Positions 387 to 61,715 of a stretch of 61,715 nucleotides of DNA are shown one piece after another. The notes beneath the pieces were generated by a model. It did no database searches. It saw only the letters and a list, made by a program, of their open reading frames with translations, and was not told the origin of the DNA. Position 1 is the first letter of the stretch. Every line of letters begins with the position of its first letter. The DNA lies in the IMG/VR virus record IMGVR_UViG_3300032331_002501, positions 1 to 61,715 of that record. One strand, 5' to 3'. The position numbers were made by a program, and so were the translations under genes. Source of the stretch: a virus.

Positions 387-785
387 TTAATCATTAGAAT
401 AATCATATTTATCTAAATAATCAATTAATGTTGTTGCAGGATTATTTTCAGCTGTTGATAACATATCAGAGATTAATTGTTCATGATCTATATCTAATAG
501 AATATCATATAGTAAATTATCATTCGCAATTGGCATATGTTTGAAACTGTAATCATCAGAATCATCTTCCATTTCGGTTAATTGTGCATCTTCCATATCT
601 CTAGCAATCGATAGTAGTTGGTTGATCATACCCATTGATTGTTCTTTATCACCATCATTGATTGAATTTCTTAATGAATATAATAGTGTAATTAAATCAC
701 TTTCAACTTCAGTTAATGTTCCTTTATACTGATTTTCAGTAATTAAACCAGCTAATTTTTGCATTTTTAAAAATTCCTTGCTCAT
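387..785 (-). CDS. Putative capsid-targeted protein with N-terminal MQKLAGLITE tag
   Basis: 132 residues, strongly acidic, no recognised enzyme domain. Residues 8-17 are MQKLAGLITE, nearly the same tag as in the head-module protein at 56694-57287. The tag ends in I-T-E followed by N, which matches the (I/L)-x-E cleavage rule of T4-type prohead proteases, so residues 1-17 may be a capsid-targeting propeptide. The gene sits among replication and chaperone genes. However, it has its own ATATTTAT motif 14 nt upstream and a terminator 27 nt downstream, so it looks like a stand-alone late unit. The gene call is firm; the packaged-protein role is inference. Confidence 0.75.
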   Translation of the reverse strand: MSKEFLKMQKLAGLITENQYKGTLTEVESDLITLLYSLRNSINDGDKEQSMGMINQLLSIARDMEDAQLTEMEDDSDDYSFKHMPIANDNLLYDILLDIDHEQLISDMLSTAENNPATTLIDYLDKYDYSND

Positions 786-2870: not shown

Positions 2871-2879
2871 AATTGTTTT

Positions 2880-9203: not shown

Positions 9204-9694
9204 TATTTTTCTTCAAAAAACTGTTTTAAATTTGGGCGAAAGTAATTTATGTTTTTCATTACTTTTCTATCACGTGATCTATATACAACCCAATAATCAC
9301 CTACTTTTTCATAATGACATTGTTCACCTTGTTCTTGTTCTCTAAGTTTAACAGTTGCTTTAGCTTCTGCTTCATCTTTACAAGCTTTAGACATGTTACT
9401 TGCTTGAACCTCTGAGTAAGCGGGTAGAATTTTGTCTTTTAAACCGTGCAACATAGCCCCGTTTCCTAAAGATACGTAAGTAATATCGCATAATGCGTCT
9501 AAGACCTCTACGATGTTTCCTGTTTCGCATGCGTGTTTATATTCTTCTAATTCCTCTAAGATGAAGTTATAGACAAACATCCATTCATCTGTAGTAGGAA
9601 TTGTTGGTTCATAATTGTTTGGTTTACCCATTGTAGCGTTAAATGTTTCTACTTCACTAATAAATGGGACATAATTTTCTTTAGATTGAGACAT
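9203..9694 (-). CDS. MazG-like all-alpha NTP pyrophosphohydrolase
   Basis: 163 residues. The helix pair FILEELEEYKHACE and EVLDALCDITYVSLGNGA shows the EExxE ... ExxD metal-binding arrangement of MazG/dUTPase-type all-alpha pyrophosphatases. The later part (KVGDYWVVYRSRDRKVMK) looks like a small C-terminal strand region. These enzymes hydrolyse (d)NTPs to monophosphates, cleaning nucleotide pools or lowering alarmones. It overlaps folE by 14 nt within the nucleotide operon. Confidence 0.8.
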   Translation of the reverse strand: MSQSKENYVPFISEVETFNATMGKPNNYEPTIPTTDEWMFVYNFILEELEEYKHACETGNIVEVLDALCDITYVSLGNGAMLHGLKDKILPAYSEVQASNMSKACKDEAEAKATVKLREQEQGEQCHYEKVGDYWVVYRSRDRKVMKNINYFRPNLKQFFEEK

Positions 9695-10376
9695 GACCGT
9701 TATTTATTTTAAGTGAATCAAAAAACTCTTTACGTGCTAGATTATCGTTTTCCATAAACACACCTGATGCTTTAGTAGTAACCATTGCAGCACCTTGATG
9801 TTTAATACCTCTGCAACTAACACAATTGTGAGTAGCAACTACTGTTACAATAACACCTAAGTTTTTTTCACAAACTTTGTTTACGGCTTGATGAATAGCT
9901 GCTGTTAACTGTTCTTGAATAGCTCCTCTACGGCCAAAGTGTTCTACAATACGATTTAATTTTGATAAACCGATTACTCTACCCTCAGCACCGGCAATAT
10001 AACCAATATGTACTACACCTCTAATTGTTTGGTGGTGATGTGAACACATTGATGTTAATTGAATATTACGTTCAATAATTACACCATCATATCCATCTGA
10101 GGGGAATGATGTAATATCAGTAAATCCATTGTATCGGCCAGCCCATAAGTCATTAACATAAGCTTTAGCTACGCGACGAGGAGTATCTGCAGAATTAGGG
10201 TCGTTTTGCCAATCGCATTTTAAAGCTTCTAAGAACTTACCAAAATGTACAGATGCTTCATCAATCATTTGTTGCTTTTCTTCATCTGTTAAAGGACGAT
10301 CTAAAGCAGATCCATTTGCTAAACCAGTTTTCACACACTCTATGTCGTTGTGAAATTTTCTTCTATTATTTTCCAT
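9681..10376 (-). CDS. folE: GTP cyclohydrolase I (FolE)
   Basis: 231 residues. The catalytic zinc site is visible: SMCSHHHQTI (Cys and His ligands) and THNCVSCRGIKHQGA (second Cys), together with RVIGLSKLNRIVEHFGRR and IQEQLTAAIHQAV. The enzyme turns GTP into dihydroneopterin triphosphate, the first step towards preQ0 and folate. With QueD, QueE and QueC downstream of 13700 on the same strand, preQ0 synthesis is the likely purpose. The first about 50 residues are a helical extension typical of the family. A TTATATTAA motif stands 6 nt before the ATG. Confidence 0.96.
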   Translation of the reverse strand: MENNRRKFHNDIECVKTGLANGSALDRPLTDEEKQQMIDEASVHFGKFLEALKCDWQNDPNSADTPRRVAKAYVNDLWAGRYNGFTDITSFPSDGYDGVIIERNIQLTSMCSHHHQTIRGVVHIGYIAGAEGRVIGLSKLNRIVEHFGRRGAIQEQLTAAIHQAVNKVCEKNLGVIVTVVATHNCVSCRGIKHQGAAMVTTKASGVFMENDNLARKEFFDSLKINNGHVSI

Positions 10377-10382
10377 ATAACT

Positions 10383-10391
10383 TTAATATAA
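10383..10391 (-). promoter_or_regulatory. TTATATTAA motif upstream of folE
   Basis: Coding-strand TTATATTAA, 6 nt before the folE ATG; the flanks TTTATTATATTAAAG resemble those at nrdB. Confidence 0.35.
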
Positions 10392-10401
10392 TAAAACTTT
10401 T

Positions 10402-10908
10402 TTATTTTCCCACAATATAAGGAAGATTTCTATGAAATCCATCTTCATCATCCATCCCATATCCCCATACCCATTCATCTTTGATTTCAAATAGGTAATC
10501 TAAATTTTCAATAGATACGGTATTTTTTTCTCGCTTAATAACAGTAACAACATTGATACTTTTTGGATTTCTTTTGGAAAGATTTTTAATTAAATAATCA
10601 ACAGTTCGTCCTGAGTCGTAGATATCATCTACAAGATAGATATGTTTATTTTCAATAGATGTTTCTATACCTTTTATAGTAATAACTTCTCCTTGTTCTT
10701 GTCCTAGATAACTTTTTACTCTAATAAAATCACATTCAAAATTAGAAGGAGATATATTTTTAATTAAGTCACTAAAAAACATAAATCCACCATTAAGAAC
10801 ACAGACAAAAACTATAGGAGTAGAATCGTTTCTATGACGTTGAGAAATTTTAAAACCTAATTTAAAAATCTTGTCTTGAATTTTTTGTTTATCAAATAAT
10901 ATTTTCAT
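10402..10908 (-). CDS. hpt: Hypoxanthine/guanine phosphoribosyltransferase
   Basis: 168 residues. The PRPP-binding loop is IYLVDDIYDSGRT (two acidic residues then DSGRT). The pyrophosphate loop is VCVLNGGFMF and the purine-binding C-terminal end is DEWVWGYGMDDEDGFHRNLPYI, the Hpt signature. It salvages hypoxanthine or guanine to IMP or GMP using PRPP. It ends by overlapping the start of the thioredoxin-like gene only slightly. In this context it may feed guanine nucleotides to FolE and RNR; that link is inference. Confidence 0.92.
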   Translation of the reverse strand: MKILFDKQKIQDKIFKLGFKISQRHRNDSTPIVFVCVLNGGFMFFSDLIKNISPSNFECDFIRVKSYLGQEQGEVITIKGIETSIENKHIYLVDDIYDSGRTVDYLIKNLSKRNPKSINVVTVIKREKNTVSIENLDYLFEIKDEWVWGYGMDDEDGFHRNLPYIVGK

Positions 10909-11167
10909 AAAGTTCCTTTATTGAATGTAAACCTGGGTAATGTTTGATTTTTCCTTTATAAGATACAACCACATGAGGGTAGTAATCTACTTCAAATTCT
11001 TGTTCTAAATCAGTATTTTCATTAAGTCTAATTAATTTAAATTCTAATTTATTAGCAATTTCTTTAATTAAGGGAGATGCAACTTTACATGCATCACACC
11101 AATCTGCATAGAATACTACTATTGCGTTTTCTTTTTTTAATGCTTCGGTTAATAATTTTTTATCCAT
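10892..11167 (-). CDS. Thioredoxin-like protein (WCDAC)
   Basis: 91 residues, a minimal thioredoxin fold. VVFYADWCDACKVASPLIKEIA has the redox WCxxC active site, and VDYYPHVVVSYKG has the cis-Pro loop in the order Y-P-H. It ends directly at the queE start (TAATG-type junction) and overlaps the phosphoribosyltransferase by 17 nt. A second thioredoxin is encoded at 12411-12668. The likely role is electron supply to ribonucleotide reductase or to radical-SAM/Que enzymes. Confidence 0.88.
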   Translation of the reverse strand: MDKKLLTEALKKENAIVVFYADWCDACKVASPLIKEIANKLEFKLIRLNENTDLEQEFEVDYYPHVVVSYKGKIKHYPGLHSIKELYENII

Positions 11168-11958
11168 TATACTTCTCGTTTTGTGTCAAATGCTATAATA
11201 TGTTCTCTACCTGTAAAATTATAACCATTATCTCTACAAAAATCCATTACCATAGGATATACTCGGATTAACTCATCTCTTGTATCACCAGGAGGCATTA
11301 ACCAAGTCTTACGTTTTGGGATATCCATTTCAACTCTAAATGTTTCAATCTCAGCCCATGCTTCAGGCATTTCAATAGGATTGCAAACAGGTTTGAAATG
11401 ATAATCATGATGGTATTCTAATGTTTTTCTTATCGTTTCTTTATCAAGACGAAATTTATTATGTTGGTCCACCATTTTTTGGTCTGCCGTTTTACCTTGC
11501 GGAGTAAGAGTCCCAAGTGCAGGAACGCTGTTACTAAACTTAGGGCTAAGAGATATAAGACCAATAGGGTAGTCAGTTTTAATGAAATGAGAACCTTCTG
11601 TTTCAATTGTAATAAATAGGCCACGTTTTTCTGCTAAATGAGTTAATTCGTTTACTAGATCAGGATGCATAGTAGGTGAACCACCGGTTAGCATCATTTC
11701 TCTAATATATGGGTTATTATCATACATAGCGATAATATCGTTAAACGTGTATTTTCCTTTCTCAGGATGAATACTAGTATACCAGCTATCACACCAACCG
11801 CCGTCACCAAACCAACATCTGTGAGTACAACCTGTAGTTCTAATAACTACTGTAGGCATACCTGCTCTACTACCTTCAGATTGCACTGCTGTGTATAATT
11901 CTACAATTGGTAGTTTTTTATTATAGTCTTCTATTCTACCTGGTTTTTTATTCTCCAT
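11167..11958 (-). CDS. queE: 7-carboxy-7-deazaguanine synthase (QueE), radical SAM
   Basis: 263 residues. It begins with IVELYTAVQSEGSRAGMPT, the substrate-binding start of QueE. The cluster region is TGCTHRCWFGDGGWCDSWYT: three cysteines in C-x3-C-x7-C spacing instead of the canonical C-x3-C-x2-C. MMLTGGSPTMHP is the SAM-binding GGxP motif. The enzyme converts CPH4 to CDG, the third step to preQ0. The long cysteine spacing resembles variants in other QueE subgroups. It overlaps queD by 11 nt. Confidence 0.93.
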   Translation of the reverse strand: MENKKPGRIEDYNKKLPIVELYTAVQSEGSRAGMPTVVIRTTGCTHRCWFGDGGWCDSWYTSIHPEKGKYTFNDIIAMYDNNPYIREMMLTGGSPTMHPDLVNELTHLAEKRGLFITIETEGSHFIKTDYPIGLISLSPKFSNSVPALGTLTPQGKTADQKMVDQHNKFRLDKETIRKTLEYHHDYHFKPVCNPIEMPEAWAEIETFRVEMDIPKRKTWLMPPGDTRDELIRVYPMVMDFCRDNGYNFTGREHIIAFDTKREV

Positions 11959-12421
11959 AAATGGCTGAGTTTTTATTATGTTCTTTAAATTCTACTTGAG
12001 TAACACGTACTCTATTATTTGTTTCTTCTAGTACAAATTTATTTACTTTGTCATAAATGTATTTTGCAAATTGTTCTGCTCCAGTAGCAGGTATTACTCT
12101 TAATTGGATAAGTTTACCTGCATCCATATCTTTAAATAATTCCAAATACTTATCATCTTCTGCTATAATTACAGTATGATCAAACATATAATCCATCCAT
12201 GCTTTAGGATTCATACCATCGATAGTACCTTTAGCTCGTTTCATTCCACCAAAGTCCCATACCCAATTCTTTTCATCTAATTCACCTTCAAAGGTAATTT
12301 TAAATGAAACACCATAACCGTGTAGAAATTGACAGTGTGTTCCATCTGCTCTCCACTGGCGGAATACTGTGCTAAATCCGTCAAATAATTTTGTTGATTG
12401 GAATTTTGTTTTAGTTCCCAT
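11948..12421 (-). CDS. queD: 6-carboxy-tetrahydropterin synthase (QueD)
   Basis: 157 residues, of the PTPS family. ADGTHCQFLHGYG carries the catalytic Cys and the zinc His-x(n)-His-Gly-His-like pair. WDFGGMKRAKG is the typical 'vvDFg.lK' strand and FDHTVII supplies the 'LDH..L' motif. The final part shows TGAEQFAKYIYDKV and VTQVEFKEHNKNSAIY, including the catalytic E. It makes CPH4 from dihydroneopterin triphosphate, between FolE and QueE. It overlaps both neighbours by about 11 nt. Confidence 0.92.
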   Translation of the reverse strand: MGTKTKFQSTKLFDGFSTVFRQWRADGTHCQFLHGYGVSFKITFEGELDEKNWVWDFGGMKRAKGTIDGMNPKAWMDYMFDHTVIIAEDDKYLELFKDMDAGKLIQLRVIPATGAEQFAKYIYDKVNKFVLEETNNRVRVTQVEFKEHNKNSAIYGE

Positions 12422-12668
12422 AATTTAACCAGTCTATAATTTGATTATAAGATTTAACTCCTACAAAACGTCTTAGTTCTTTTCCGTTTTCTGCTAGTAC
12501 AACAACAGGAACACTACGTACTTGTGCTTCTGTTAGCATAGCCGGATCAACATGATCTACATTTTGTTTAATAACAGGAATTTGTCTTGCTATTTCATCC
12601 ATTATTGGTCCTAATGTTTGGCAAGGTTCGCACCATGGTGCACTGTAATAATATAATACTTGGCTCAT
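12411..12668 (-). CDS. Thioredoxin-like protein (WCEPC)
   Basis: 85 residues. LYYYSAPWCEPCQTLGPIMDEI carries the WCxxC redox site and VRSVPVVVLAENGKE the cis-proline (V-P). It is shorter than E. coli thioredoxin (109 residues) and closer to glutaredoxin-like phage thioredoxins. Its start overlaps the stop of a tiny membrane-protein gene (ATGA). It lies between queC and queD, so it belongs to the preQ0 operon. Confidence 0.88.
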   Translation of the reverse strand: MSQVLYYYSAPWCEPCQTLGPIMDEIARQIPVIKQNVDHVDPAMLTEAQVRSVPVVVLAENGKELRRFVGVKSYNQIIDWLNYGN

Positions 12669-12820
12669 ACTAATTCTTCAATTACACCTAAGGCTTCACT
12701 AGCAATTAAAATACTAGCAGCAATAGGAATGTTAATAAATAAAGTTACATATCCTACAATTCGTAAGATAGATTTAGCAAAACTAATTTGCTGGTGTTTT
12801 TTAGGGTCTGGGTGTTTCAT
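12665..12820 (-). CDS. Small single-span membrane protein
   Basis: 51 residues: a basic start MKHPDPKKHQQISFAKSILR, a hydrophobic stretch of about 24 residues (IVGYVTLFINIPIAASILIA) and the acidic end SEALGVIEELV. One transmembrane helix is predicted by eye, probably N-terminus inside. Both ends are fixed by overlaps: 20 nt with queC upstream and an ATGA junction with the thioredoxin downstream. This argues for a real gene. Function unknown; holin-like or membrane-anchoring roles are possible but unsupported. Confidence 0.7.
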   Translation of the reverse strand: MKHPDPKKHQQISFAKSILRIVGYVTLFINIPIAASILIASEALGVIEELV

Positions 12821-13700
12821 GGTTTTCTAATATTTGTGTTACGTGTGCTACTACTGTTTCCCAACTTACAGGACCTGTCTCATCAGCATAGTCAACTGGG
12901 TCTACTTTCCCAAGTCTCATAAATGCTTCAACTCGTTCTACTGATGATGCTGATTTATAATCACTGTACCAGGTTTCAAAAAAGACGTTTATTTCATCTT
13001 CTGTTCCTTCAAATCTTTTTTCCGATTCTACTATTCTAATTGGTTTATAAGATGTATTTGTGTAGCTATATACTTTATTAAAATTAAGACCTAATTGCTC
13101 ACAGCAGTTATCTCCATCTACTAAAATACCAAACTTATCATCCTCAAGGTAAGGTGTATAATGATATACTTTTTCAGCACCCCAATTACCTAATTTAAAT
13201 GCTTCAAAATCAGCATCTCTAAACTCTTGACGACAATCAGGATAAATAGCGTGATCACCTGCGTGTATCCCCATTGCAATAGCACATTCAGTATTCTTTT
13301 GTTCAGCAATTGATAACGCAACTGCTTGAATAATAGAACTAAAAATTTTATTGCGATTAGGAACTACTGTTGCTTTCATATTCTCTTCAGCATAGTGTCC
13401 TTCAGGTACTTCTTCACCTCCAGTAACTAATGCTGAGTTTAATAATTTAGATAGGCCATCTAGTTTGATTATTTGATGTTTTACATAATATGGGTATTCT
13501 GCTGTTTTAGACTCTTCATCTATAATACAGTATCCATTAATGTATTTAACTAAATCTTTAGCGCGCTCTAATTCTACATTATGTTTTTGTCCATAATCGA
13601 ATGATAATGCTGTTACTTCATATTCATTAGCGAGCAAATGAAGTAATAATGTGGAACTATCCATTCCCCCACTTAACGATAAAACTGCTTGTTTTTTCAT
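12801..13700 (-). CDS. queC: 7-cyano-7-deazaguanine synthase (QueC), zinc site altered
   Basis: 299 residues, longer than the usual ~220-230. The PP-loop AVLSLSGGMDSSTLLLHLL binds ATP. VVPNRNKIFSSIIQAVALS, AIAMGIHAGDHAIYPDCR and YTPYLEDDK follow as in QueC. The C-terminal segment aligns with the zinc-binding region by its tail SSVERVEAFMRLGKVDPVDY. However, the CxxC cysteines there are serines (SASS) and the earlier 'SCY' is 'TSY'. ATP-dependent conversion of CDG to preQ0 is expected, but structural zinc is probably absent. The DpdA-like gene upstream abuts it by a 4-nt overlap. Confidence 0.93.
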   Translation of the reverse strand: MKKQAVLSLSGGMDSSTLLLHLLANEYEVTALSFDYGQKHNVELERAKDLVKYINGYCIIDEESKTAEYPYYVKHQIIKLDGLSKLLNSALVTGGEEVPEGHYAEENMKATVVPNRNKIFSSIIQAVALSIAEQKNTECAIAMGIHAGDHAIYPDCRQEFRDADFEAFKLGNWGAEKVYHYTPYLEDDKFGILVDGDNCCEQLGLNFNKVYSYTNTSYKPIRIVESEKRFEGTEDEINVFFETWYSDYKSASSVERVEAFMRLGKVDPVDYADETGPVSWETVVAHVTQILENHETPRP

Positions 13701-14882: not shown

Positions 14883-15341
14883 TTAATAATTTGTTGATTT
14901 TACACCACTACCTAAATCAGATAATCTTACTAATTCAGGGCCATCTAAACCTTTAGTTTCTTTTATAGCATAACCTAAAACAACTTTAGCTTCTTCAGAT
15001 AAAACTCCAGGAGTTTGACCATCGCGAAGATTTTCAAGATATATTCTTGCATCTCTTATAGCTTCTATTTCGTCTGGGTCTGGGTTTCCTGTTCTTGAGT
15101 TACTTAGTTCTATTAAATATCCTATAAGAACTGAATATGGGTTTTCTGCTGAGATTTCAGTTTTATTTTTAGAAGAAACAGTTTGAGGCATATCTTGAGC
15201 TTTTATTCCTCCTAAAGATCCAGCTAGAGATGCTAGTCCTACTAAAACATTTTCCTTCCAACCCTCATTTATAGTATTATTTTTATTTAATACATTTTGG
15301 ATTTCTTCTCTAATGATTTGTTTTAGTTGTGATGATTTCAT
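14883..15341 (-). CDS. Putative virion protein with IREEI motif and hydrophobic segment
   Basis: 152 residues. The N-terminus is KSSQLKQIIREEIQNVLN, the 'KLRxIIREE' helix also present in the head-module proteins at 56694 and 57902. An I-N-E/G site near residue 27 could be cut by the prohead protease. After it comes a hydrophobic stretch (VLVGLASLAGSLGG), possibly a signal peptide or membrane helix, ending near AQD. The rest is polar. Like 387-785 it is a stand-alone unit, with an ATATTTAT motif 21 nt upstream and a terminator downstream, placed between nrdA and the deazaguanine genes. Function unknown. Confidence 0.7.
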   Translation of the reverse strand: MKSSQLKQIIREEIQNVLNKNNTINEGWKENVLVGLASLAGSLGGIKAQDMPQTVSSKNKTEISAENPYSVLIGYLIELSNSRTGNPDPDEIEAIRDARIYLENLRDGQTPGVLSEEAKVVLGYAIKETKGLDGPELVRLSDLGSGVKSTNY

Positions 15342-46540: not shown

Positions 46541-48673
46541 TTATGTTGGATATATTCCGAAACTATATTGATTAACCGTAGGTCCGTTGGCTACACTAGT
46601 ACTAACTTGTAATGATATCTCAGCGCCTAGTGCAACTGATGCGCTATTAATTGTGTCAGAGTATAAACCAGCTGCTTGACCTCCAGATATGTTTATTCTA
46701 AGATTTGTAGATACACCATTAACTCTAACAGTAAATGTAGTAAAACTACTAGCAACAGCTGCACCATTAGTTCTTATATAAAGATTTTTTAATAACCCAG
46801 TAAATGGAGAAGCTATTTGACGTTGTGTTTCAGTAGCAGATACAGCTGTAGTTCCAAAAGGTAAATAAGTAACTATGGGGTTGGTAAAACCAGCACCCGC
46901 TGCATAGTTACCAAATATAGTAGAACCAATTACTGAGGTTGTTAATACATTTCCACTAGTATCTACACCTAACATTGCTGCTTCAGATCCAGTAAATGCT
47001 TCTGAGCCTGTGTATTTGTTAAATGCGACTTGTCCATTATGTAAGTTAATACCAAAATGTTGGGTAGTACTACTAGAATTTGTTCCTTTTAATATTCGGA
47101 ATTGGTCCTGCCAAGTATCAATCATTGAGGCAGATGTGTATAATCCTCCCGATGCTTGTAATAACATTTGGCCTCCTTCTCCAGGGCTTGTATTAGGTGG
47201 TAAACCTACAATTAAAGTATTTTCTCCTCCACCAGCACTTGAAGTTCCTACTGTTAATTGACCAGTTATTATTGATGAACCTGATGTTAATAGTGAGCCT
47301 GTAATTTGGAATTGTGAGCCAGAAGCAAAAACTAAATTTGATCTAGCAGAATTACTAGTTCCATTTCCAATTATAAAAGCACTTTGTGCTGATGATGATA
47401 TATTATATTGACCTTGTGTATGTTGATATGCTCCTAATGCTACAGTTCCCAATCCCTCCGCATGGGATGCAACTCCTTTTGCTTCTGTACTTGTTCCTTC
47501 AGCATGAGTGTATGAACCAGATGCTATAGTTCCCGATCCTTCAGCATGTGAAGAAGCACCATAAGTAGTAGTACTTTGTCCTTCAGTATGCGAATTATCA
47601 CCATAAGCATTAGTAGTATTTCCTTCGGCATGGGAATAATAACCAGATGCTATTGAGTATGCTCCTTCAGCATGAGATCCTGTTCCATTAGTAGTTGTGC
47701 CAACTCCTTCAACGTGTGAATATGCACCAATAGCTTGATTTAAATTCCCTCCTCCACCACCCCAACCTTCAGCATGAGATCCTTCTCCTATTGCTTGTGT
47801 ACCTGCACCTTCAGCATGAGAACCAACTCCAATTGCTTGGTTGTATGCATTGTATGGAGATCCTTCATCTAAATATGTGTAGTAATAACCTTCAGCATGG
47901 GAAGCAATTCCTGATGCTACAGTAAGAGAGCCCTCAGCATGTGAATAACTTCCAGTAGCTGTTGTACCAGATCCTTCAGCATGTGAAGCATATCCGTTTG
48001 CTGTTGTAGCGTTTCCTTCTGCGTGGGAGCCTGTTCCAGTTGTTTGATTACCGGCTATTCCTTGTCGAAAAGTACCTATTATTGAAGTTGATCCTGTTAC
48101 TCCTAAACTTCCTGTTATTAAGGCAGAGCCTGTGAATGGGAATGCAGATCCACCTCCTGGGGCATATGAAGCTGATAAGGCGTATGAGGCTGAAGTTGCT
48201 CTTGAAGCGGTTAGTGCATTTGAAGCACTTTGCGCCCAACTTGCTGTTCCAAAGAATCCTAATGAGGCTGTTATACTACCTGTAACTAATATTGATCCAT
48301 TAATATCTAGATTGTATCCATTTGTTATAGTAGATTTGTTAATACCCATTGAACCTGTAGCTGGGTTTACTACAAATTTAGTAGAGGCTACTCTTGAAGG
48401 TCTATATCCTGAGTTAGCTAAGAAAAATGATAAGTAGTTTGTAGCATTATTACTTGGTACATCATTTACTTCTATGTTTGCAGTAACGGATGATGTACTT
48501 GCGAATGATGCACTTGTAACAGAACCTAATAAAAATGAAGCAGTACTTGCGAATGATGCACTTGTAATGGATCCTAATAATGATGAAGCTGTTAAGGCAA
48601 ATGATGCGGTTGTTGCTAATGAAGCAGTAGCAGCATTAATTAGTAAACCATTTATTTGTGATATATTAGCCAT
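46541..48673 (-). CDS. Tail fibre with YadA-like SHAEG repeats
   Basis: 710 residues. Residues about 215-420 hold 14-18-residue repeats of the form 'GSHAEG..TTA.G..', like the left-handed beta-roll of YadA-type trimeric adhesin heads. TASFA repeats lie in the first 170 residues. The C-terminal domain (FTVRVNGVSTNLRIN, YSFGIYPT) could bind the host. It should be a trimeric fibre. It begins 10 nt downstream of the 728-residue fibre gene. Confidence 0.82.
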   Translation of the reverse strand: MANISQINGLLINAATASLATTASFALTASSLLGSITSASFASTASFLLGSVTSASFASTSSVTANIEVNDVPSNNATNYLSFFLANSGYRPSRVASTKFVVNPATGSMGINKSTITNGYNLDINGSILVTGSITASLGFFGTASWAQSASNALTASRATSASYALSASYAPGGGSAFPFTGSALITGSLGVTGSTSIIGTFRQGIAGNQTTGTGSHAEGNATTANGYASHAEGSGTTATGSYSHAEGSLTVASGIASHAEGYYYTYLDEGSPYNAYNQAIGVGSHAEGAGTQAIGEGSHAEGWGGGGGNLNQAIGAYSHVEGVGTTTNGTGSHAEGAYSIASGYYSHAEGNTTNAYGDNSHTEGQSTTTYGASSHAEGSGTIASGSYTHAEGTSTEAKGVASHAEGLGTVALGAYQHTQGQYNISSSAQSAFIIGNGTSNSARSNLVFASGSQFQITGSLLTSGSSIITGQLTVGTSSAGGGENTLIVGLPPNTSPGEGGQMLLQASGGLYTSASMIDTWQDQFRILKGTNSSSTTQHFGINLHNGQVAFNKYTGSEAFTGSEAAMLGVDTSGNVLTTSVIGSTIFGNYAAGAGFTNPIVTYLPFGTTAVSATETQRQIASPFTGLLKNLYIRTNGAAVASSFTTFTVRVNGVSTNLRINISGGQAAGLYSDTINSASVALGAEISLQVSTSVANGPTVNQYSFGIYPT
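47420..48030 (-). repeat. SHAEG repeat region
   Basis: About a dozen in-frame repeats encoding 'SHAEG' plus a linker, on the coding strand. The DNA copies are diverged ('tcagcatg' recurs), so expansion is old. Confidence 0.75.
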
Positions 48674-48683
48674 AAATTATTTT

Positions 48684-50870
48684 TTATATTTCATACCAAT
48701 CAGTGCTTGGTCTAAATTTCATTGTCCACCAATTAGCGTCTGTTGTGCTTTTGTAATATACATGACCTAATACCCTTACTACTCCTGTGGTTGGGACTGT
48801 TGTGGTCATTACTCCATTAGTACTACCAAGATATACTGGTAGTCCATAGCCTGCTCCTATTACATAAGCTCCTTGACTGTTATCATCACTTACTCCTATA
48901 TCACCTTCTATTAATACATACCCAGCTGTATCCACACATATACCTAACATTTTAGTAGCAGGAGGAGATAGATTTTTTAATGGATACCAAATACCGTCTG
49001 TATCTAAGTATACCACATTATAAAGAGCAGCACTTGATGTTACATCTGCCTGGATTACTTGTCCACCGTATGCTGGTGTATCTGCTAAAGATCTTTGAAC
49101 TTGTCTAGGAATAACATTATTATAGTATAGTTGACTACTTACAGACGCAGAGTTAGAATAATTAAGAGCTTCGAATGTGTTACTTGTTTCATAAAGCACT
49201 CTGTTTGTCCAATCTATACTAGCGCCTGCCTCGTCATATAAAAATTTGTTTTCCCAATCAACAACATTAATTCCAGCTGTAGTGTTAAGATAACCATTAA
49301 TCCAATCTACCTTTGAGATAGAACCTGAGTTAGATAATACTCCATTGATTGTATCTATTCCTCCTGTAGATCCAGATACTACTAATGACCCGGTAATTTT
49401 AGCTGCTCCTACATACGGGAAAGCTGATCCACCTCCTGGGGCCCAGGAAGCAGATGTAGCCCAACTAGATGTGCCTAATAAACTCCCAGTAAATGATCCT
49501 GTGAATGAAGATCCGGTTATAGCAGAAGAAGATATATTAGTAATAAATAATCTATTAGTAGATGGGTTAAAGTTAATTACACTTGAGTCTGAGTATAGGT
49601 TTGCATTTCCAAAAGCTGTACTAGCAAACGGTACAGGGTAAAAAATATTAGAAGTAGTATCAGGATTAACACTTACTGCATTAGAATAATTAGCTGCAAC
49701 TACATTATTAGCCCAGCTTGCAGTACCAAATAAACTTCCTGTTACAGCTGTAGGAGATCCTGCAGTACCAATAATACCTACAGTTAATGTGTCTACAATA
49801 GGATTATAAGTGAAATTATTGAGTTCAGCATATGCAATTTGAGATCCAGTAGAAGTAACAAATAGAATTTCATATGCTCCTGGAGAGGTGCTTAGATCTG
49901 TTACTTCTATTCTTTGGGCTATACTTGCAGTAGATGCGTAAGAAGCTGATGTAGCATTGGTTATACTTCCTGAAAAATAAGATGCAGTAGCTGCTATACT
50001 TGCACTAAGAGCATATGAAGCAGATGTTGCATTAGTTATGCTCCCTGAAAAATAGGATGCAGTTGATGCAAAAGATGCACTAATAGCATTTAATATATAA
50101 GATGCAGTTATAGCTTGAGATGAACTTACTGCCCAACTTGAAGTACCAAATAAACTTCCTGTAAATGATCCTGTAAATGAGGATCCAGTTATAGTAGAGG
50201 AAGATATACTGGTGATAAATAGTCTATTAGTAGATGGGTTAAAATTAAATACAGTTGAATCATATTTTACATCAACTGCTACACCAGCGACCTTAGCAAA
50301 TAAAACTTCAAGAAAATCATTAGTAGTAGTATCAGAAGCAACACTTATCCTATTAGCGGTAGTAGCAGTATCTGCTCTAGAAGCTGAGATTGCTCTAGAA
50401 GATGTTGTAAATAAAGTGCCATTAGCTGGGTTATAGTATAGACTAGATGAGTCTGTAAGAAGTTGTGAAGGATCAGTATTAACTCTTACAAATGTTACTG
50501 GGAATCCACCTGCTTCTGTTGTATTTGTTACTGAAGAAGATAAGGCAACAGATGCTGTAAGAGCAAAGGTAGCATTACTTATACTTCCTGAAAAGTATGA
50601 GGCTGTAGATGCAAAGGATGCGCTTCTAGCATTATTAGCCCAACTAGCTGTAGCAACAAAAGATGCTGTAAGAGCAAAAGATGCAGTTTCAGCATATGAA
50701 GCAGATGTAGCATTGGTTATACTCCCTGAGAAGTAAGATGCAGTTTCAGCATATGAAGCAGATGTAGCATTACTTATACTCCCTGAAAAATATGAGGCGG
50801 TAAGGGCTAAGGATGCTGTGTTTGCTTTTAAAGCAACTAATGCTATATCAGATTTAGTAGTAATTCCCAT
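48684..50870 (-). CDS. Tail fibre protein with TASYFSGS repeats
   Basis: 728 residues. Repeats of 'TASYFSGSITNATSASYA' occur in the N-terminal third and again near the middle. The block 'SSTITGSSFTGSFTGSLFGT' is also duplicated. The C-terminal about 150 residues are less repetitive (GYVLIEGDIGVSDDNSQGAY and WWTMKFRPSTDWYEI). A long shaft followed by a tip domain is suggested. A late motif stands 17 nt upstream. Confidence 0.75.
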   Translation of the reverse strand: MGITTKSDIALVALKANTASLALTASYFSGSISNATSASYAETASYFSGSITNATSASYAETASFALTASFVATASWANNARSASFASTASYFSGSISNATFALTASVALSSSVTNTTEAGGFPVTFVRVNTDPSQLLTDSSSLYYNPANGTLFTTSSRAISASRADTATTANRISVASDTTTNDFLEVLFAKVAGVAVDVKYDSTVFNFNPSTNRLFITSISSSTITGSSFTGSFTGSLFGTSSWAVSSSQAITASYILNAISASFASTASYFSGSITNATSASYALSASIAATASYFSGSITNATSASYASTASIAQRIEVTDLSTSPGAYEILFVTSTGSQIAYAELNNFTYNPIVDTLTVGIIGTAGSPTAVTGSLFGTASWANNVVAANYSNAVSVNPDTTSNIFYPVPFASTAFGNANLYSDSSVINFNPSTNRLFITNISSSAITGSSFTGSFTGSLLGTSSWATSASWAPGGGSAFPYVGAAKITGSLVVSGSTGGIDTINGVLSNSGSISKVDWINGYLNTTAGINVVDWENKFLYDEAGASIDWTNRVLYETSNTFEALNYSNSASVSSQLYYNNVIPRQVQRSLADTPAYGGQVIQADVTSSAALYNVVYLDTDGIWYPLKNLSPPATKMLGICVDTAGYVLIEGDIGVSDDNSQGAYVIGAGYGLPVYLGSTNGVMTTTVPTTGVVRVLGHVYYKSTTDANWWTMKFRPSTDWYEI

Positions 50871-53343: not shown

Positions 53344-55008
53344 TTAAAGAGTATTTAAACCATTTACATAGATCTTACCATAGAATTCAGGACGTAACAT
53401 CTTCTTAGCGAAGCGAGTCATTAAACCTTTACGTGGTGTGAAGGTATCTGGGTCGTACACTAGAGGAGTCATGATCAACGGAATGTATGGAGCGAACACA
53501 GCACCTGCTTCTAAGAACTGAGTACCACGGAAACCAACTAAGATAGTGTTTTCAGTCATATATGGGTTCTTGTAAACATTGTACTTGCTGTTTAAGTTAC
53601 CAGCTTTTTGTACTCCGAATGCATATTGCATTTTAGAAGCAGTACCATCAGAATTTGAAGCGAATCCAGGGATTGATTCAATGATAGTAGATACTGTTGG
53701 AGAACATACTAAGAAGTTAGCACCACCACGAAGAGTCAATTGGTGAATCTTGTTACTTAATTTTTGTAATTTAGTACCAAGAGTTTGGAACCACTGACCT
53801 TGAGTGTTGTAGAAACCTAAGTTAGCAGTTGGTAATGAAGTAGCTGTAAGAGTAGTGTTATTAATAGCACTCCAATATTCAACGTTAGTTGCAGGAACGT
53901 CTGCAATCAACATATCAAGGATTTCTAAATCGATCTCTAATGAGATATACTCAGACATAATGCTAGTTAATTCAGCTTCAGCATCTAAAGCTTGGTAAGC
54001 ATTTAAGTCTTGAGCGAATTCAGGTGTCCAAACTGCCTTTAACTTTTTAGTCTTAGCAACAATAGCCTCAGAACGCATTTTAACGTTAACTTCTGGGATT
54101 ACAATTGTAGAAGTACTAGCAGAGTTAGGAACAGCGAATGAACTTCCATCTTCAAAATCACCTACATTGTATCCTGGGGTACCTCCTAGAGCAGTAGCTT
54201 TAGTATAGATTACAGTACAGTTTACAGCAGCAGCAGTACCATTGGTTTGAGCTGTTGAAGATGAGAAGAAGAAGTTAACAACTGTATTGTTAGCAGTTGT
54301 AGTTGTAAACGCAGGTAACAAGTTACTTACTGTTTGAGTTGAACCAGAAGTAAATATAAATCCACGAACTGCTTCAACATCGTAACTTGGAATTAAAGAT
54401 GAAGAGAAAGAGAATTTTTTAACCTCACCTGCAACTGCAGAAGCAGACAAGTCAGAATCATAATTCACCTCAGCCCAAGAACCTGTAGCGATTGTTACAC
54501 CAGAAGCTATTAAGGAAGATGTTTGGTTAGTAGAGTAAGTGAAACGACCAGCACCATATAAACCACCTACAGGAGATGGATTAGCGAATGGGTATTGGCT
54601 TCCTGTGTTACCATACATAGAGTTGTTTACGTTGAATGGGTTCTTTGCGTTACCATATTGAAAATCCAAATAGAATACAAGACCTGAAGGGAAGTTCATT
54701 GGTTGTACGCTAACGAATTCTTTAGCAGCAATTTGTCCGAATACCTTACGAACTAATGGTAAAGCGATTCCAGCCCACTGCTCACCAGTACCAGCTGTAA
54801 ATGCACCTGTTCCACCAGTTGCAGAAGATTCAACTACTAATTGCTTTGCTTGATTCTCAAGCATAAGAGACATGTTATTCTTGTCGGTTTCTTCTAAACC
54901 TTCCAAAAGCCCTGTCTTGGCCCATTTGTTTGCTAATCTAGCGGCGTCGTTTTGTAAATTTTTCCAGCCACCCGCAGCAGACTCTAATAAATTTTGAACT
55001 GTGCTCAT
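53344..55008 (-). CDS. 23: Major capsid protein (T4 gp23-like)
   Basis: 554 residues (T4 gp23 has 521). A propeptide-like N-terminus precedes QLVVE60/SSATGGTGAFTAG, a probable prohead-protease site. Then LPLVRKVFGQIAAKEFVSVQPM is the conserved entry to the HK97-type fold. KMRSEAIVAKTKKLKAVWTPEFAQDL and the end MLRPEFYGKIYVNGL are typical gp23 segments. The encoded GroEL/GroES probably folds it, as T4 gp31 does with host GroEL. No late motif immediately upstream: it follows the scaffold gene by 37 nt. Confidence 0.95.
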   Translation of the reverse strand: MSTVQNLLESAAGGWKNLQNDAARLANKWAKTGLLEGLEETDKNNMSLMLENQAKQLVVESSATGGTGAFTAGTGEQWAGIALPLVRKVFGQIAAKEFVSVQPMNFPSGLVFYLDFQYGNAKNPFNVNNSMYGNTGSQYPFANPSPVGGLYGAGRFTYSTNQTSSLIASGVTIATGSWAEVNYDSDLSASAVAGEVKKFSFSSSLIPSYDVEAVRGFIFTSGSTQTVSNLLPAFTTTTANNTVVNFFFSSSTAQTNGTAAAVNCTVIYTKATALGGTPGYNVGDFEDGSSFAVPNSASTSTIVIPEVNVKMRSEAIVAKTKKLKAVWTPEFAQDLNAYQALDAEAELTSIMSEYISLEIDLEILDMLIADVPATNVEYWSAINNTTLTATSLPTANLGFYNTQGQWFQTLGTKLQKLSNKIHQLTLRGGANFLVCSPTVSTIIESIPGFASNSDGTASKMQYAFGVQKAGNLNSKYNVYKNPYMTENTILVGFRGTQFLEAGAVFAPYIPLIMTPLVYDPDTFTPRKGLMTRFAKKMLRPEFYGKIYVNGLNTL

Positions 55009-55045: not shown

Positions 55046-56497
55046 TTAAATTATACCGGCTAACTTTTTAAATCTGTCAACCATCATATTTGATTCAACA
55101 ATAGGACTCTTAGTTGAAGTTCCCATTGCTTTTGAAGCAAATCCTAATGACTCATTAACAGAAGACTTAGTAGTTTTTAAGTTTTCTAATAATGTTTCAT
55201 ATACTAATTTAGCTTCTTTAACACTGTTTGCCTTGTCAAAAGCCGTTAAAACTTTAACCTTTTGAGTTTCATTTAGAGAACGATTTTTGAAGATCTTGTT
55301 AGTGTAAAGTAACTTAGCGTTTAGAACATTAACTTCGTTAAGTTCACTTCTTAAAGTATTGATAGCTGAGTAAGCTTCATCAAGTTCTTTTTTAAGTTGT
55401 TTAGTCTCTCCAAAAGAACCTTTAGACATTCCTCCTCTAACAGCTCCACCAGCACCTGTTCCTAGCTTTTGAGCTAAAGATCTAGTGTCTCCTGGGGTAA
55501 CATTAGTAATAAGATCGTTAAGTTCTTTTTTAACTACGTTTTTAAAGTCTGCAGGGTCTACATTAAATTTCTTTACTGCACCCGCTGCCCATGAATCGTA
55601 AGCTTTAAGTAACTTATCTTGAATAGTTTTTAGAGCTTCTGGGTTTTCTTCTGCATCTTTCTCAGCTGTTTTTAATGCTGCTAAATCTGCTTTGTAAGTA
55701 GTTTTAAAATCATTGACAGCTTTTTGTGCAGCGCCACCTAAAAATTCTCCAACTTTTTTACCAAGACCACCTAATATCTCATCAACTTCTTCTTTGTCGT
55801 TAAGTTTTTTAATTTCAGCAAGAAGTTCTTCAAGTGAATACTCATCAATAGGTTTTGATTCTTCTTCACTATCTTCAGTTCCTTCAGATTCACCAGGAGC
55901 TAAATCACCAGCAGAAACCATGTCTTTGATAACATCTTCAATAAATGATTTTAAATCATCTTCATCCATGTCTTCAATGTTCATATCTTCTTCTGATTCT
56001 TCACCACCTTCTTCTTCTTCAGTTTCTTCTTCTTCTTCTTCTTCAGTTTCTTCTTCTTCTTCTTCAGCTTCGTTTAAAAAGTCACTGTCAATGTCTTGCT
56101 CATCATCTTGAAATTCTTCTTCAGACTCTAATTCAGCTAAAAGTTCTTCTAAATCAATTTCATCGATTTCTTCTTCTTCTTCATAAAGTTCATCCATTTC
56201 GTCTGTTTCTTCCATTTCATCAAGCTCATCCATTTCGTCTGTTTCTTCCATTTCATCTAGATCAGATACATACTTTTTGTCTTTCTTTGATGGAGAAGGG
56301 TTGTAGTTTTTATACTCGTCCATTTCATTCATGTTTTCATCTTCTTCTTCCATTTCTGAAAGGCGTTGAGATAACATTGATTTAATTTGTGGAGTAAATG
56401 CTTCTTCAAGTGCAGCTTTAGCATTTGCAATGGCAGTTTCTTTAACAGCTTTAGCATCAGCGATAGCCTCTTTGAGTAAATCTCTGTTGTTTTTCAT
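55046..56497 (-). CDS. 22: Prohead core scaffold protein (T4 gp22-like)
   Basis: 483 residues. A helical start LLKEAIADAKAVKETAIANA is followed by a very acidic region at about 50-210, including a 12-residue duplication DEMEETDEMDEL. The helical C-terminal half contains LKKELDEAYSAINTLRSELNEV (coiled coil). It ends with MVDRFKKLAGII, which echoes the KLAGII tag of other head proteins. Position before the capsid gene and composition match gp22; the acidic insert is unusually long. Confidence 0.82.
   Translation of the reverse strand: MKNNRDLLKEAIADAKAVKETAIANAKAALEEAFTPQIKSMLSQRLSEMEEEDENMNEMDEYKNYNPSPSKKDKKYVSDLDEMEETDEMDELDEMEETDEMDELYEEEEEIDEIDLEELLAELESEEEFQDDEQDIDSDFLNEAEEEEEETEEEEEEETEEEEGGEESEEDMNIEDMDEDDLKSFIEDVIKDMVSAGDLAPGESEGTEDSEEESKPIDEYSLEELLAEIKKLNDKEEVDEILGGLGKKVGEFLGGAAQKAVNDFKTTYKADLAALKTAEKDAEENPEALKTIQDKLLKAYDSWAAGAVKKFNVDPADFKNVVKKELNDLITNVTPGDTRSLAQKLGTGAGGAVRGGMSKGSFGETKQLKKELDEAYSAINTLRSELNEVNVLNAKLLYTNKIFKNRSLNETQKVKVLTAFDKANSVKEAKLVYETLLENLKTTKSSVNESLGFASKAMGTSTKSPIVESNMMVDRFKKLAGII
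56191..56262 (-). repeat. Tandem 36-bp repeat in the scaffold gene
   Basis: Two nearly identical 36-bp units, 56191-56226 and 56227-56262, each encoding DEMEETDEMDEL. A recent slippage duplication in an acidic low-complexity part. Confidence 0.85.
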
Positions 56498-56693: not shown

Positions 56694-57287
56694 TTAAGAT
56701 TCCATTTCAGCACTTCTACGAACTCTGCTTATAAGTTTTGTAGCAAGTGATGAATTATTTTTCTTTAGTTCTTTATATTTTTTATCTTTAGCTAACGCTT
56801 CAACTCCTTTAGCACTATATTTTTTTTCTAAAGCATCAAAAATCTCTTTTTCTTCAGTTTTAGTTAATTCTTTTTCAACTTCTTCTCTAATAAATTGTCT
56901 TAATTTTGATATTTTAGATTCAGAAAAAGTATCTTCTTCATCATCAAATAAATCTGCATCTCCTATTTCACTATTATAATTAAATGCATCATCAGTATAT
57001 GCGTTTGGATTAGAGGTTCCAGAAGTTCCAATAGTACTAACATACTCTTCTACACCTTGTTGTATATCTCCTCGTAGTGCTGAGAAGGGGGTGTTAACTA
57101 CATCGTCTATATCTTCTGCTCCGTCAAGATAACCTAAAGCAATATCTTCTTTTTCTTCGTATGTTAGATCATTATCCCATACTGATGCTGCAGAAGGGGT
57201 GTTCATTTCGTTTAATTGAGATTCAGTAATAATTCCTGCAAGTTTTTGCATTTTGCGGAAATCTTCAGATAAAATTTGGTTTTTCAT
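56694..57287 (-). CDS. Putative prohead core protein with MQKLAGIITE tag
   Basis: 197 residues from the ATG at 57285-57287; a longer GTG start would overlap the protease gene. Residues 13-22 are MQKLAGIITE, followed by SQLNE, so an I-T-E/S prohead-protease site is likely. The middle is acidic (DADLFDDEEDTF). ISKLRQFIREEVEKELTKTE is the IREE helix shared with 14883 and 57902. It lies between the protease and scaffold genes. The core/packaged role is inference, not a named T4 homologue. Confidence 0.72.
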   Translation of the reverse strand: MKNQILSEDFRKMQKLAGIITESQLNEMNTPSAASVWDNDLTYEEKEDIALGYLDGAEDIDDVVNTPFSALRGDIQQGVEEYVSTIGTSGTSNPNAYTDDAFNYNSEIGDADLFDDEEDTFSESKISKLRQFIREEVEKELTKTEEKEIFDALEKKYSAKGVEALAKDKKYKELKKNNSSLATKLISRVRRSAEMES

Positions 57288-57291
57288 AGTG

Positions 57292-57900
57292 TTAGAATAT
57301 TGGGCATGATCCATTAGCACATAGTATGTCTGTGATAATAGAGTTTATTTTTAAATATGGGTTATTATTTTGTTGGTTTTCATTTAAGTTTCCGACAACA
57401 TGCATGTATGAGCCAGGGTTTGATGGGGTTGAGACAAAATCCCAACATAAAAGTTCAAAATCATTTTGTACTTCTAAAGTTTCACCTATTTGTTTTAGTG
57501 AACCCATTCCACGAGAAGATACTCCTACTGTGATGTTATTAGATAATAATGACGCTAATATATTTCCTGAAGGTGTAGGTAGGATTTCGATTGCGCCCAT
57601 TACTTTATCACCATCCCACCATATTTTTTTAATATTATGAGATACATTTTTTAGGTTAATGATAGAAGAATCAGGGTGATCAAGTTCACCTAAAGCACGA
57701 TTATCTTTAATACATTTTTGGTAGTTACCAATTTCTCTTTCCCAAAGTTCTTTTTTATAATATCGACCATTACCATTTTTTACTTCAGCTGTAGCTAATA
57801 TTCCTTCTACTAAAAGATTTCTTTCATTAGGAGATTTTCCCTCGTTTATGTTAACGGGTTTAAAACTAAAAGCAGAAGTTTCAATAAGTACTTGTTTCAT
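57292..57900 (-). CDS. 21: Prohead core protease (T4 gp21-like)
   Basis: 202 residues (T4 gp21 has 212). LVEGILATAEVKNGNGRYY at the start, RALGELDHPDSS with the catalytic His, and NITVGVSSRGMGSLKQ with the catalytic Ser are the herpes-like/gp21 serine-protease signatures. DFELLCWDFVSTPSNPGSYM follows as in gp21. It cleaves core and capsid propeptides after (I/L)-x-E. It lies between the putative core genes and the scaffold gene, and overlaps nothing when the next gene starts at 57287. Confidence 0.93.
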   Translation of the reverse strand: MKQVLIETSAFSFKPVNINEGKSPNERNLLVEGILATAEVKNGNGRYYKKELWEREIGNYQKCIKDNRALGELDHPDSSIINLKNVSHNIKKIWWDGDKVMGAIEILPTPSGNILASLLSNNITVGVSSRGMGSLKQIGETLEVQNDFELLCWDFVSTPSNPGSYMHVVGNLNENQQNNNPYLKINSIITDILCANGSCPIF

Positions 57901-59215: not shown

Positions 59216-59731
59216 TTATTGTTGGTTTTTAAATAGTTTGATTAAATCATTTAAATAATCTACTGCTAACTCAGTACCATAAAGATTTTCCATAGATGGA
59301 TTTTCTTTATAGAAATTAACAGATTTTTGTTTAGCATTCTGAAGTAGTGGAATTAATTCATTTAATTTAATTTCTATTTCTTCAAATTCTTTCATTTTTG
59401 TAGCAACATGCTGTTTAACTCCAGCATCTTGAGTATCTAGACTATCAACGTAACTATTTACGTTAAAATTTTCTTCGTTTAGTTTAGATTTTTTCCACAA
59501 ATGTACGTAATCTACTCCTTTTTGTTTTTTAGCTAATTTATCAGGAGTAGCATCTTTAAAACCTAAAGAAGCATACATTGTATCTTTTACTCCTTTAATT
59601 TTCTTTTTAGAGAAAGCTAATGGGGTAGCATATTGTGGACCAGTACCTGCTGAAAATGCAGCTGTGCCCCCACTAGTAGCCATTTCTTGGAGTTTATTTT
59701 TTATAAATTCTGTAAGTTCTTTTCTGGTCAT
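59216..59731 (-). CDS. Putative prohead protein sharing a capsid-protein motif
   Basis: 171 residues. MTRKELTEFIKNKLQE16/M is followed by ATSGGTAAFSAGTGPQY. The latter matches the region after the predicted cleavage site of the major capsid protein (SSATGGTGAFTAGTGEQW). The rest is helical with a C-terminal segment (MKEFEEIEIKLNELIPLLQN). Start and stop are linked to both neighbours by overlaps of 0-4 nt. A capsid-lattice binding or core protein is suggested by the shared motif. Confidence 0.7.
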   Translation of the reverse strand: MTRKELTEFIKNKLQEMATSGGTAAFSAGTGPQYATPLAFSKKKIKGVKDTMYASLGFKDATPDKLAKKQKGVDYVHLWKKSKLNEENFNVNSYVDSLDTQDAGVKQHVATKMKEFEEIEIKLNELIPLLQNAKQKSVNFYKENPSMENLYGTELAVDYLNDLIKLFKNQQ

Positions 59732-60621: not shown

Positions 60622-61715
60622 TTAATCCTTTAATAAGTTTTCATCTAGAAACCCTTCTCCACCATCTTTATTAAAGATATTTATTTTTTTATCCATAGTT
60701 TCAAAAATAAGTTTATTTTTTAAGAGTGTAGTTTTAGCAACCTCATTAAAAGTATTTGGGCCTTTTTTTCTATTTCTAAATCTATTATCTTCAGGTCCCA
60801 TATCACCGTTTTCTTTCTTACCTAATCTATCTTTTCCTAATGGATCTTCTTGAGTATCTATAAATGAGGCTTTTTCTTGTGGGCGACCTGGGAGGTCTGA
60901 TTCGTATCCTGTTGGTACGTCTGCTGAAAGTGAGGAGTATCTTCCTTGGCCATATAGTGATGCTAAATCATGAGGTGTACCATACGATTTTCCAGATTCA
61001 AATGGATCATTACCTTCAGTTTCAATTTGTGATAGTCTGAATTTGAATTTTTGGTCTTGAATTACTAAGTCTCTGTATTCATCAAATGTATCTTCACTAA
61101 AGTTAAATATATTATCATAAACCCAATCTGCTGGTAATAATTTAGCGTCTAAGATATTCTTAGCTAGGTCTACTTTTTCTTTTAGTAAAGCAACTTTTTC
61201 TTGTTCAAATATGATAGAAGGGTTTGTTAAACCTAATTCAAAATTAGCTAAACTTTCCCCAGTATATCCTTGAGTATATAAATGAACTAAAGCTATTTTA
61301 TATAGTTCTGAAAGGATAATTCTTTGGATGCGGTCTACAGTACGAGCAAAGCGAATATCTTCTGCGGCTAGTGTAGCTTTACCTTGTAATTGAGCATCAT
61401 ATCCCATAAACGCTTTAGGTACTTTTAAAGCAGCCATCATTTTATCTCTCAAATAAACAACGTCTGTTATACCATCATAATCTAATCCTTTGGTAGTATC
61501 TATTTTAGTAGTAGCATCCCCACCTCTTACAGGAATAAAATAATCTTCTAACATGTTTTGCATGTTATATTTAAGATTATACTCACCAGTTTGAGGATCC
61601 ATATATGGTGTTCGTTTCATTTTAGAAACTGTTCTTTCCATAAATTGATCAATTTCATTAGGTGGAATTGAACCTACATTAATATAGAATACTCGTCTTT
61701 CTGGGGCTCTTACTA
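60622..61715 (-). CDS. 20: Portal vertex protein (T4 gp20-like), C-terminal part
   Basis: Partial gene: the frame is open to the right window edge, upstream of the first internal ATG at 61641. At least 364 residues are visible. RAPERRVFYINVGSIPPNE, EDYFIPVRGGDATTKIDT, and GKATLAAEDIRFARTVDRIQ are gp20 signatures; IRFAR-type residues line the clip/stem region. The C-terminal about 100 residues are disordered and charged. The dodecameric portal nucleates the prohead and lets DNA through. T4 order is kept (20, core genes, 21, 22, 23). Confidence 0.95.
   Translation of the reverse strand, partial: VRAPERRVFYINVGSIPPNEIDQFMERTVSKMKRTPYMDPQTGEYNLKYNMQNMLEDYFIPVRGGDATTKIDTTKGLDYDGITDVVYLRDKMMAALKVPKAFMGYDAQLQGKATLAAEDIRFARTVDRIQRIILSELYKIALVHLYTQGYTGESLANFELGLTNPSIIFEQEKVALLKEKVDLAKNILDAKLLPADWVYDNIFNFSEDTFDEYRDLVIQDQKFKFRLSQIETEGNDPFESGKSYGTPHDLASLYGQGRYSSLSADVPTGYESDLPGRPQEKASFIDTQEDPLGKDRLGKKENGDMGPEDNRFRNRKKGPNTFNEVAKTTLLKNKLIFETMDKKINIFNKDGGEGFLDENLLKD

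Follow-up and report, generated by a model that had tools for sequence, protein, structure and literature searches.

A short peptide with the core MQKLAG lies near one end of many unrelated proteins of a T4-like phage lineage and, judged from its sequence, it looks like a copy of the docking tail of these phages' own head scaffold fused to a cleavage site. We consider it probable that this KLAG tag is a capsid-targeting propeptide that acts by scaffold mimicry and is removed by the S77 protease; which partner it docks on, and that the proteins are packaged, cleaved and delivered, are inferences. What we observed directly is that the tag exists, that it is modular and matches the scaffold tail, that a cleavage-type site separates it from the cargo whether it is N- or C-terminal, that a protease gene is present and that one cargo is Acb1-like.

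Tagged genes and head module of the window

The window (the whole stretch of DNA analysed here, a 61,715-base IMG/VR virus record) has a T4-like head module on its minus strand, with the genes in the T4-like order gp20, gp21, scaffold, gp23 (table 1). The S77 protease encoded there is the enzyme expected to cut the tag. The scaffold ORF lies directly upstream of the major capsid protein gene and ends in NMMVDRFKKLAGII. Residues 1–60 of the capsid protein are predicted to be its pro-region, which would end in QLVVE immediately before SSATGG; the capsid proteins of relatives have a conserved LV[VTI]E and then a variable Gly/Ser-rich stretch, and the position of LV[VTI]E is that at which T4 gp23 is cut (T4 gp23 LTE65). 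A 171-amino acid protein (window 59216–59731, minus strand) starts MTRKELTEFIKNKLQE-MATSGGTAAFSAGTGPQYATP, and its part after the Glu is like the predicted start of the mature capsid protein (SSATGGTGAFTAGTGEQWAG).

Table 1. Tagged genes and head genes of the window, with their sequence features
Feature	Position	Strand	Basis or remark
Tagged gene 2	387..785	-	ORF, 132 aa; MSKEFLKMQKLAGLITE followed by NQYKG...
Gene 2 tag MQKLAGLITE	764..735	-	Pattern match
Major capsid protein, gp23 family	53344..55008	-	Pfam PF07068 E 3e-70
Head scaffold, acidic, 483 aa	55046..56497	-	Location and composition; 70 relatives show this architecture too
Scaffold C-terminal core VDRFKKLAGII, sequence apparently copied by the tag	55049..55081	-	
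PIVE, predicted cut site that would release the scaffold C-terminal peptide	55094..55105	-	
Tagged gene 1	56694..57287	-	ORF; protein MKNQILSEDFRKMQKLAGIITE followed by SQLNE...
Gene 1 tag MQKLAGIITE	57251..57222	-	Pattern match
Prohead protease, Peptidase_S77 / T4 gp21 family	57292..57900	-	Pfam PF03420 E 2e-28; PHROG 207
Portal protein, gp20 family	60622..61641	-	Pfam PF07230 E 3e-32; 5' part outside the window

Two unrelated minus-strand ORFs carry the tag near their N-termini, as the first-pass annotation had described, and the residues after I-T-E are also those it gave (S-Q in gene 1 and N-Q in gene 2). The N-terminal part of gene 1 translates as ...MKNQILSEDFRKMQKLAGIITESQLNE, and gene 2 reads MSKEFLKMQKLAGLITENQYKG. 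The start at 57287 previously assumed for gene 1 is plausible, though in-frame starts exist further upstream (GTG 57320 and ATG 57314), so that the tag is 12 to 23 residues from the start; one alignment took window:56697-57308 as its reference, beginning at His-5 of the longest ORF, and the results are unaffected. Gene 1, which is situated between the protease and scaffold genes, is composite, with the KLAG tag, an acidic linker, a second module SKLRQFIREEVEKEL and a C-terminal domain; this C-terminal part is similar to the L360 protein MKKSELKQLIKEEIQKVL..., and near-identical genes are present in L511–L513. The [ILV]xE rule that 195 of 202 tags obey (below) predicts a cut in its product after the Glu of codon 57222–57224, before Ser. 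The gene 2 body belongs to an 8-sequence BLAST cluster among the matches listed. The plus strand of both gene spans has stops throughout. Composition alone would give 2.8e-8 occurrences of the tag over all six frames of this window.

Several other genes of the minus strand deserve mention. Homologues of GroEL and GroES (by sequence; window 1254–3182) adjoin tagged gene 2, and two large repeat proteins (SHAEG-type and TASYFSGSI-type; 46541–50870), probably fibres or fibre-associated, adjoin a PhoH-like gene. Positions 9681–13700 hold what we take to be 7-deazaguanine/queuosine genes (judged by eye to be FolE-, QueE-, QueD- and QueC-like, which agrees with the annotation of phage immuto).

Spread of the tag and its cleavage-type site

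Scanning viral contigs for MQKLAG[ILMF]I[TNSI]E found at least 119 stretches, and when all loci from this and further scans (F-x-R-MQKLAG, in which ITE was not required, and two with FL[HYKN]MQKLAG) are pooled, there are at least 292 distinct MQKLAG contexts in IMG/VR contigs. Among the 292 contexts listed, 203 are N-terminal (no more than 45 residues from the start), 45 are at the extreme C-terminus and 44 are internal or subterminal; the N-terminal tags listed are mostly at residue 7, 11 or 12. A scan of related phages had been proposed in the first-pass annotation, and it finds the tag on a wide variety of proteins: BLAST comparison of the parts beyond the tag places the listed matches in about 99 body clusters, 66 of them singletons (clustering by BLAST may divide distant families into separate clusters). 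One mark of a T4-type capsid targeting sequence, a short terminal peptide on otherwise unrelated proteins, is thus present. Since the same six residues, MQKLAG, are encoded by 66 different DNA 18-mers among the matches listed, it is the peptide that is selected and not the DNA; the reversed pattern has no match in 33 records.

The tagged proteins are mostly short (median 140 amino acids) and 85% of their bodies are acidic, both among the matches listed, and complete or long genomes have from 0 to 6 tagged genes, which are often distant from the head genes. Nineteen of 30 tag-bearing contigs encode gp23 or S77 (S77 in 18), and both are encoded by all six contigs of at least 99.8 kb. The lineage has isolated members. 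One of them, immuto, a cultured phage of Flavobacterium sp. LMO8, shares the scaffold tail and carries two tagged genes, gp083 (YP_010114600) and gp230 (YP_010114453). In bacterial genomes the tag pattern was found in only 3 MAG contigs. One of these matches, in a Thiomonas contig (L127), falls inside an Arg-rich frame and is probably incidental. Two loci (L082 and L097) have tandem tags in one ORF, apparently two tagged proteins that have become fused, e.g. MNEEFTRIQKLAGVITE...NEEFKRMQKLAGIINE.

T4 gp21 cuts after L/I-x-E (PMC9026906), and the counts agree with the earlier suggestion that the I-T-E end of the tag is a site of this type: among the matches listed, [ILV]-x-E occurs within 8 residues after 195 of 202 N-terminal tags, whereas the background in body windows is 9%. 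At the C-terminal cores listed the site precedes the core in 40 of 42 and follows it in 3. The scan that did not require ITE has the site after the core in 87/92 N-terminal versus 4/52 C-terminal cores (again among the matches listed), and variants with altered spacing (LAGIPITE, LAGIPLAE, LAGINE and LAGIKINE) keep the rule. The scaffolds carry the core, not ITE. From the retention of the cleavage-type site on the cargo side, together with the capsid pro-site LV[VTI]E, the core appears to serve for binding and x-E for cutting. An xE also precedes the core in roughly half of the N-terminal tags listed, and in some proteins the tag might therefore be cut out at both of its flanks.

A second recurrent N-terminal peptide, M-K-x-[ST]-x-L-[KR]-x-[LI]-I-[RK]-E-E..., which includes L/I-x-E, is found at window 14883–15341 (minus strand) and in L054, L062, L073, L089, L300 and L323; most of those genomes have 1–7 copies near protein starts, versus about 0.1 expected. 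Proteins with a C-terminal KLAG core often start with this second peptide, and some cargo may accordingly have a tag at each terminus.

The scaffold tail and varied terminal peptides

Relatives were collected by their capsid protein, and the 70 with a complete upstream gene were taken. In all 70 the scaffold encoded upstream of the major capsid protein gene ends in the core, typically as PI[ILMV]E-xN-xxFxR[MW]QxLAGIKK, and the PI[ILMV]E before the core is kept in most of them. Only 21 of the 3,901 ORFs in 20 genomes are core-ended, one scaffold in each of 17 genomes and four other proteins. The scaffold of Microcystis phage Mel-JY01 ends ERMKKLAGIVK and that of Rhodothermus phage RM378, whose capsid protein is 34% identical, ends ERIKRLAGL, and in each genome this is the single ORF with the terminal motif; in two records of huge phages the scaffold-tail position is taken by LADIS and LAGRKAK. 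Pelagibacter phage HTVC008M and a cyanophage are without the motif. Because the core is conserved in scaffolds, distant phages included, the motif is primarily the scaffold's own and the cargo tags look like copies of it. The first-pass annotation had noted that the scaffold of the window ends in FKKLAGII, and the ORF does terminate in VDRFKKLAGII; what had not been recognized is the probable role of this string as the mechanism.

The scaffold tails have M, W or F at one position, where the tags keep Met, and no strict co-variation of residues between tag and scaffold tail was seen by eye. Three genomes (G002, G003 and G007) have a LAG scaffold but no N-terminal tag, so tagging is optional. 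The immuto protein annotated as 'DNA polymerase phi-like protein' (L122:35627-36868, NC_055915 gp067) is the head scaffold by position, composition and C-terminus. Two candidates for wider scaffold mimicry, T4 gp22 MLKEQLIAEA with the T4 capsid targeting sequence MKTYQEFIAEA, and LIxE-type second peptides with the scaffold N-terminus RDLLKEAI, have similarities too short to support a claim.

Scans of 83 tagged proteins with Pfam, PHROG and NCBIfam found little besides the Acb1/2H family (DUF6576 in L064 is above its cut-off but covers only 30 residues, and many weak family matches on one low-complexity protein, L034, were discarded). Acb1 degrades CBASS signals by means of an HxT/HxT tetrad (PMC9117128). 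The tagged protein L326:4266-4826 scores above the curated Pfam cut-off for Acb1 (29.1 versus 27 bits) and its sibling L115 just under it (26.8 bits); the His and Thr of both HxT pairs are invariant in 28 homologues. A structural model of the L326 enzyme (pLDDT 89) matches 2H phosphoesterases; the best Foldseek match is 9q2g, a phage phosphodiesterase whose PDB name is anti-CBASS Acb1 (E 5e-6), but the TM score is only about 0.54 and other 2H enzymes match as well. One cargo thus resembles an Acb1-like (anti-CBASS) phosphodiesterase, its substrate not having been shown. The presence of the tag on clear cytosolic enzymes had been named beforehand as an observation that would refute the propeptide idea; it was not seen on replication or metabolic enzymes, and the sole recognizable enzyme, an anti-CBASS-like phosphodiesterase, is the sort of cargo worth injecting, its delivery being inferred.

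The Acb1-like bodies average 52% identity while their N-terminal peptides are unrelated, and nearly all of these peptides end in hydrophobic-x-E a few residues before the body. They include MENQEFKRMQKLAGLIVE, MIKLLDLLKE, MIKKFTEFVNE, MKTIKDFITE, MKAVKLFEEFILE, MIIKNYIQFIKE and MHKFITFKNWLSE, and two homologues start MKTIKDFI[TN]E, like the T4 capsid targeting sequence MKTYQEFIAE. The KLAG-tagged versions are in phages with a core-ended scaffold (G057 and G064). The MKTIKDFITE version is in phages whose protease and scaffold are apparently fused and that have no core tail, and other proteins of the genome that bears it start SYSEFITE, SYTEFLNE and FGEFINE. Phages G060 and G069 have a LAG/LAN scaffold, yet a third type of peptide is on their Acb1-like enzyme. 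Three T4-like genomes with an apparent protease-scaffold fusion (G061, G063 and G077; L514–L525 and L551–L557) have N-terminal peptide families of their own, [FY]xx[FY][ILV][NTA]E, which is very like the T4 sequence, and YxxWLNE; in G077 many proteins have EKFxEESDPIxDMGIG in common near their starts.

Proposed mechanism, alternatives and known systems

During prohead assembly the C-terminal helix of the scaffold (..F-x-R-[MWF]-Q-K-L-A-G-[IL]) would dock inside the growing head; its partner there is most likely either the gp23-type capsid protein, on its inner face, or the core. Cargo carrying a copy of the helix, usually 7–14 residues from its start and sometimes at its C-terminus, would be built into the core, with a gp21-type site, [ILV]-x-E, between helix and cargo. 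At head maturation the S77 protease would cut both scaffold tails and cargo tags, and the freed cargo would stay among the DNA and be injected with it into the next cell. The tag had been put forward in the first-pass annotation as a candidate capsid-targeting propeptide, and that proposal now has computational support from the many unrelated bodies, from where the site is placed, from the S77 protease and from the match between tag and scaffold tail. Packaging and cleavage are unproven, because no virion proteomics of such phages was found in the literature, including the Baltic Flavobacterium phage paper.

The most serious alternative is that the tag is a core-assembly or minor-scaffold peptide, and that the tagged proteins take part in core building or in fixing head size, after which they are degraded and expelled, like T4 gp67 and gp68, and never delivered to the host. 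The identity of tag and scaffold tail would fit this, as would the mostly small, acidic bodies (85%, among the matches listed), which are like T4 gp67, and the location of gene 1 between protease and scaffold. We nevertheless think it unlikely, given about 99 unrelated bodies among the matches listed, of which a genome has 0–6, often at a distance from its head genes, and given that one body is an Acb1-like phosphodiesterase with an intact active site; such a fate is not excluded for some tagged proteins, including the product of gene 1 of the window, a protein of unknown function. Alternatively, the tag could dock its protein onto a different phage or host assembly (a membrane, replication or transcription complex), with the scaffold tail binding the same partner. 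The location of the tagged proteins is not known, and the peptide is modelled as a weakly placed helix, as are many docking motifs; but it is in the scaffold that the motif is conserved, and a site of the head-protease type separates tag from cargo at whichever terminus the tag stands, which makes this improbable.

Descent poses less of a difficulty. Some bodies do cluster (the 32 sequences joined by single linkage, among the matches listed), as they would if the tagged proteins were paralogues with a shared N-terminal domain and the tag had no role in transport, but the 99 clusters and 66 singletons among those matches, the tags at C-termini and the unrelated N-terminal peptides on Acb1-like bodies that average 52% identity leave this idea very little room. 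Nothing beyond AT-rich codon usage speaks for chance or for a DNA-level element (a regulatory sequence or mobile coding repeat), and we regard these as refuted by the 2.8e-8 occurrences expected per window, the failure of the reversed pattern to match in 33 records and the 66 DNA versions among the matches listed.

If the tag is indeed a capsid-targeting propeptide, a string of 12–20 residues would reveal injected phage proteins straight from sequence, in a lineage common in IMG/VR, and about 100 families (among the matches listed), mostly of unknown function, would become candidates for early-acting, host-directed proteins. It would also give a concrete answer to how a capsid targeting sequence is recognized, namely by copying the scaffold tail, an explanation that we have not found stated for T4. 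Judging from one cargo, anti-CBASS activity may arrive at time zero, and the tag could be tried as a short removable cargo-loading peptide. A broader proposal, for which we find the case evenly balanced, is that these peptides form a general loading code. A T4-like lineage of wide distribution would fill its heads with a changing set of pre-made anti-defence proteins by copying the scaffold docking tail onto them, and related lineages would swap loading peptides on one and the same effector. Injected effectors could then be picked out of environmental phage genomes by their terminal peptide alone. Our literature search found no mention of 'MQKLAG' or 'KLAGLITE' and no natural tag that copies a scaffold terminus.

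Several known systems are comparable. The cargo-loading peptides of encapsulins are likewise short terminal peptides that load diverse cargo into an HK97-fold shell; unlike the KLAG tag they are usually C-terminal, involve no scaffold and no removal, and serve a cellular compartment. The T4 capsid targeting sequence is on the internal proteins IPI, IPII and IPIII (PMC9026906, citing Mullaney and Black 1996), and it is like the KLAG tag a short N-terminal peptide with a hydrophobic-x-E end, on unrelated bodies, in a genome with an S77 protease. Since MKTYQEFIAE and FxRMQKLAGIITE have only hydrophobic-x-E in common, the KLAG tag would work like the T4 sequence and is not a member of it by sequence; unlike the T4 peptide it copies the scaffold C-terminus, is used at C-termini too and is on about 100 body clusters among the matches listed. 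The N-terminal residues of phage P1 DarB suffice to bring a reporter into the head, and that cargo is anti-restriction (PMC9024508), but DarB is one large protein with a different signal sequence and no scaffold mimicry described. Cargo of the Acb1 type has the two HxT motifs of Acb1 (PMC9117128), a 2H phosphoesterase and, in its structural model, matches 2H phosphoesterases; T4 Acb1 (gp57B) starts MMEFKDFSTGLYVAAK, without a hydrophobic-x-E site, whereas the KLAG cargo bears a peptide of the head-loading type, and in T4 infection Acb1-type activity is seen only from about 15 min (PMC9117128). In engineered P22 scaffold fusions (PMC9962691) cargo enters by way of the capsid-interacting part of the scaffold; these are man-made and use a long piece of scaffold, whereas the KLAG tag is natural, about 12–20 residues long and has a cleavage-type site built in. 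Capsid-targeting sequences (T4, P1) and loading by engineered P22 scaffold fusion are therefore known already, and what is new, as far as we have found, is a natural tag that copies the scaffold terminus.
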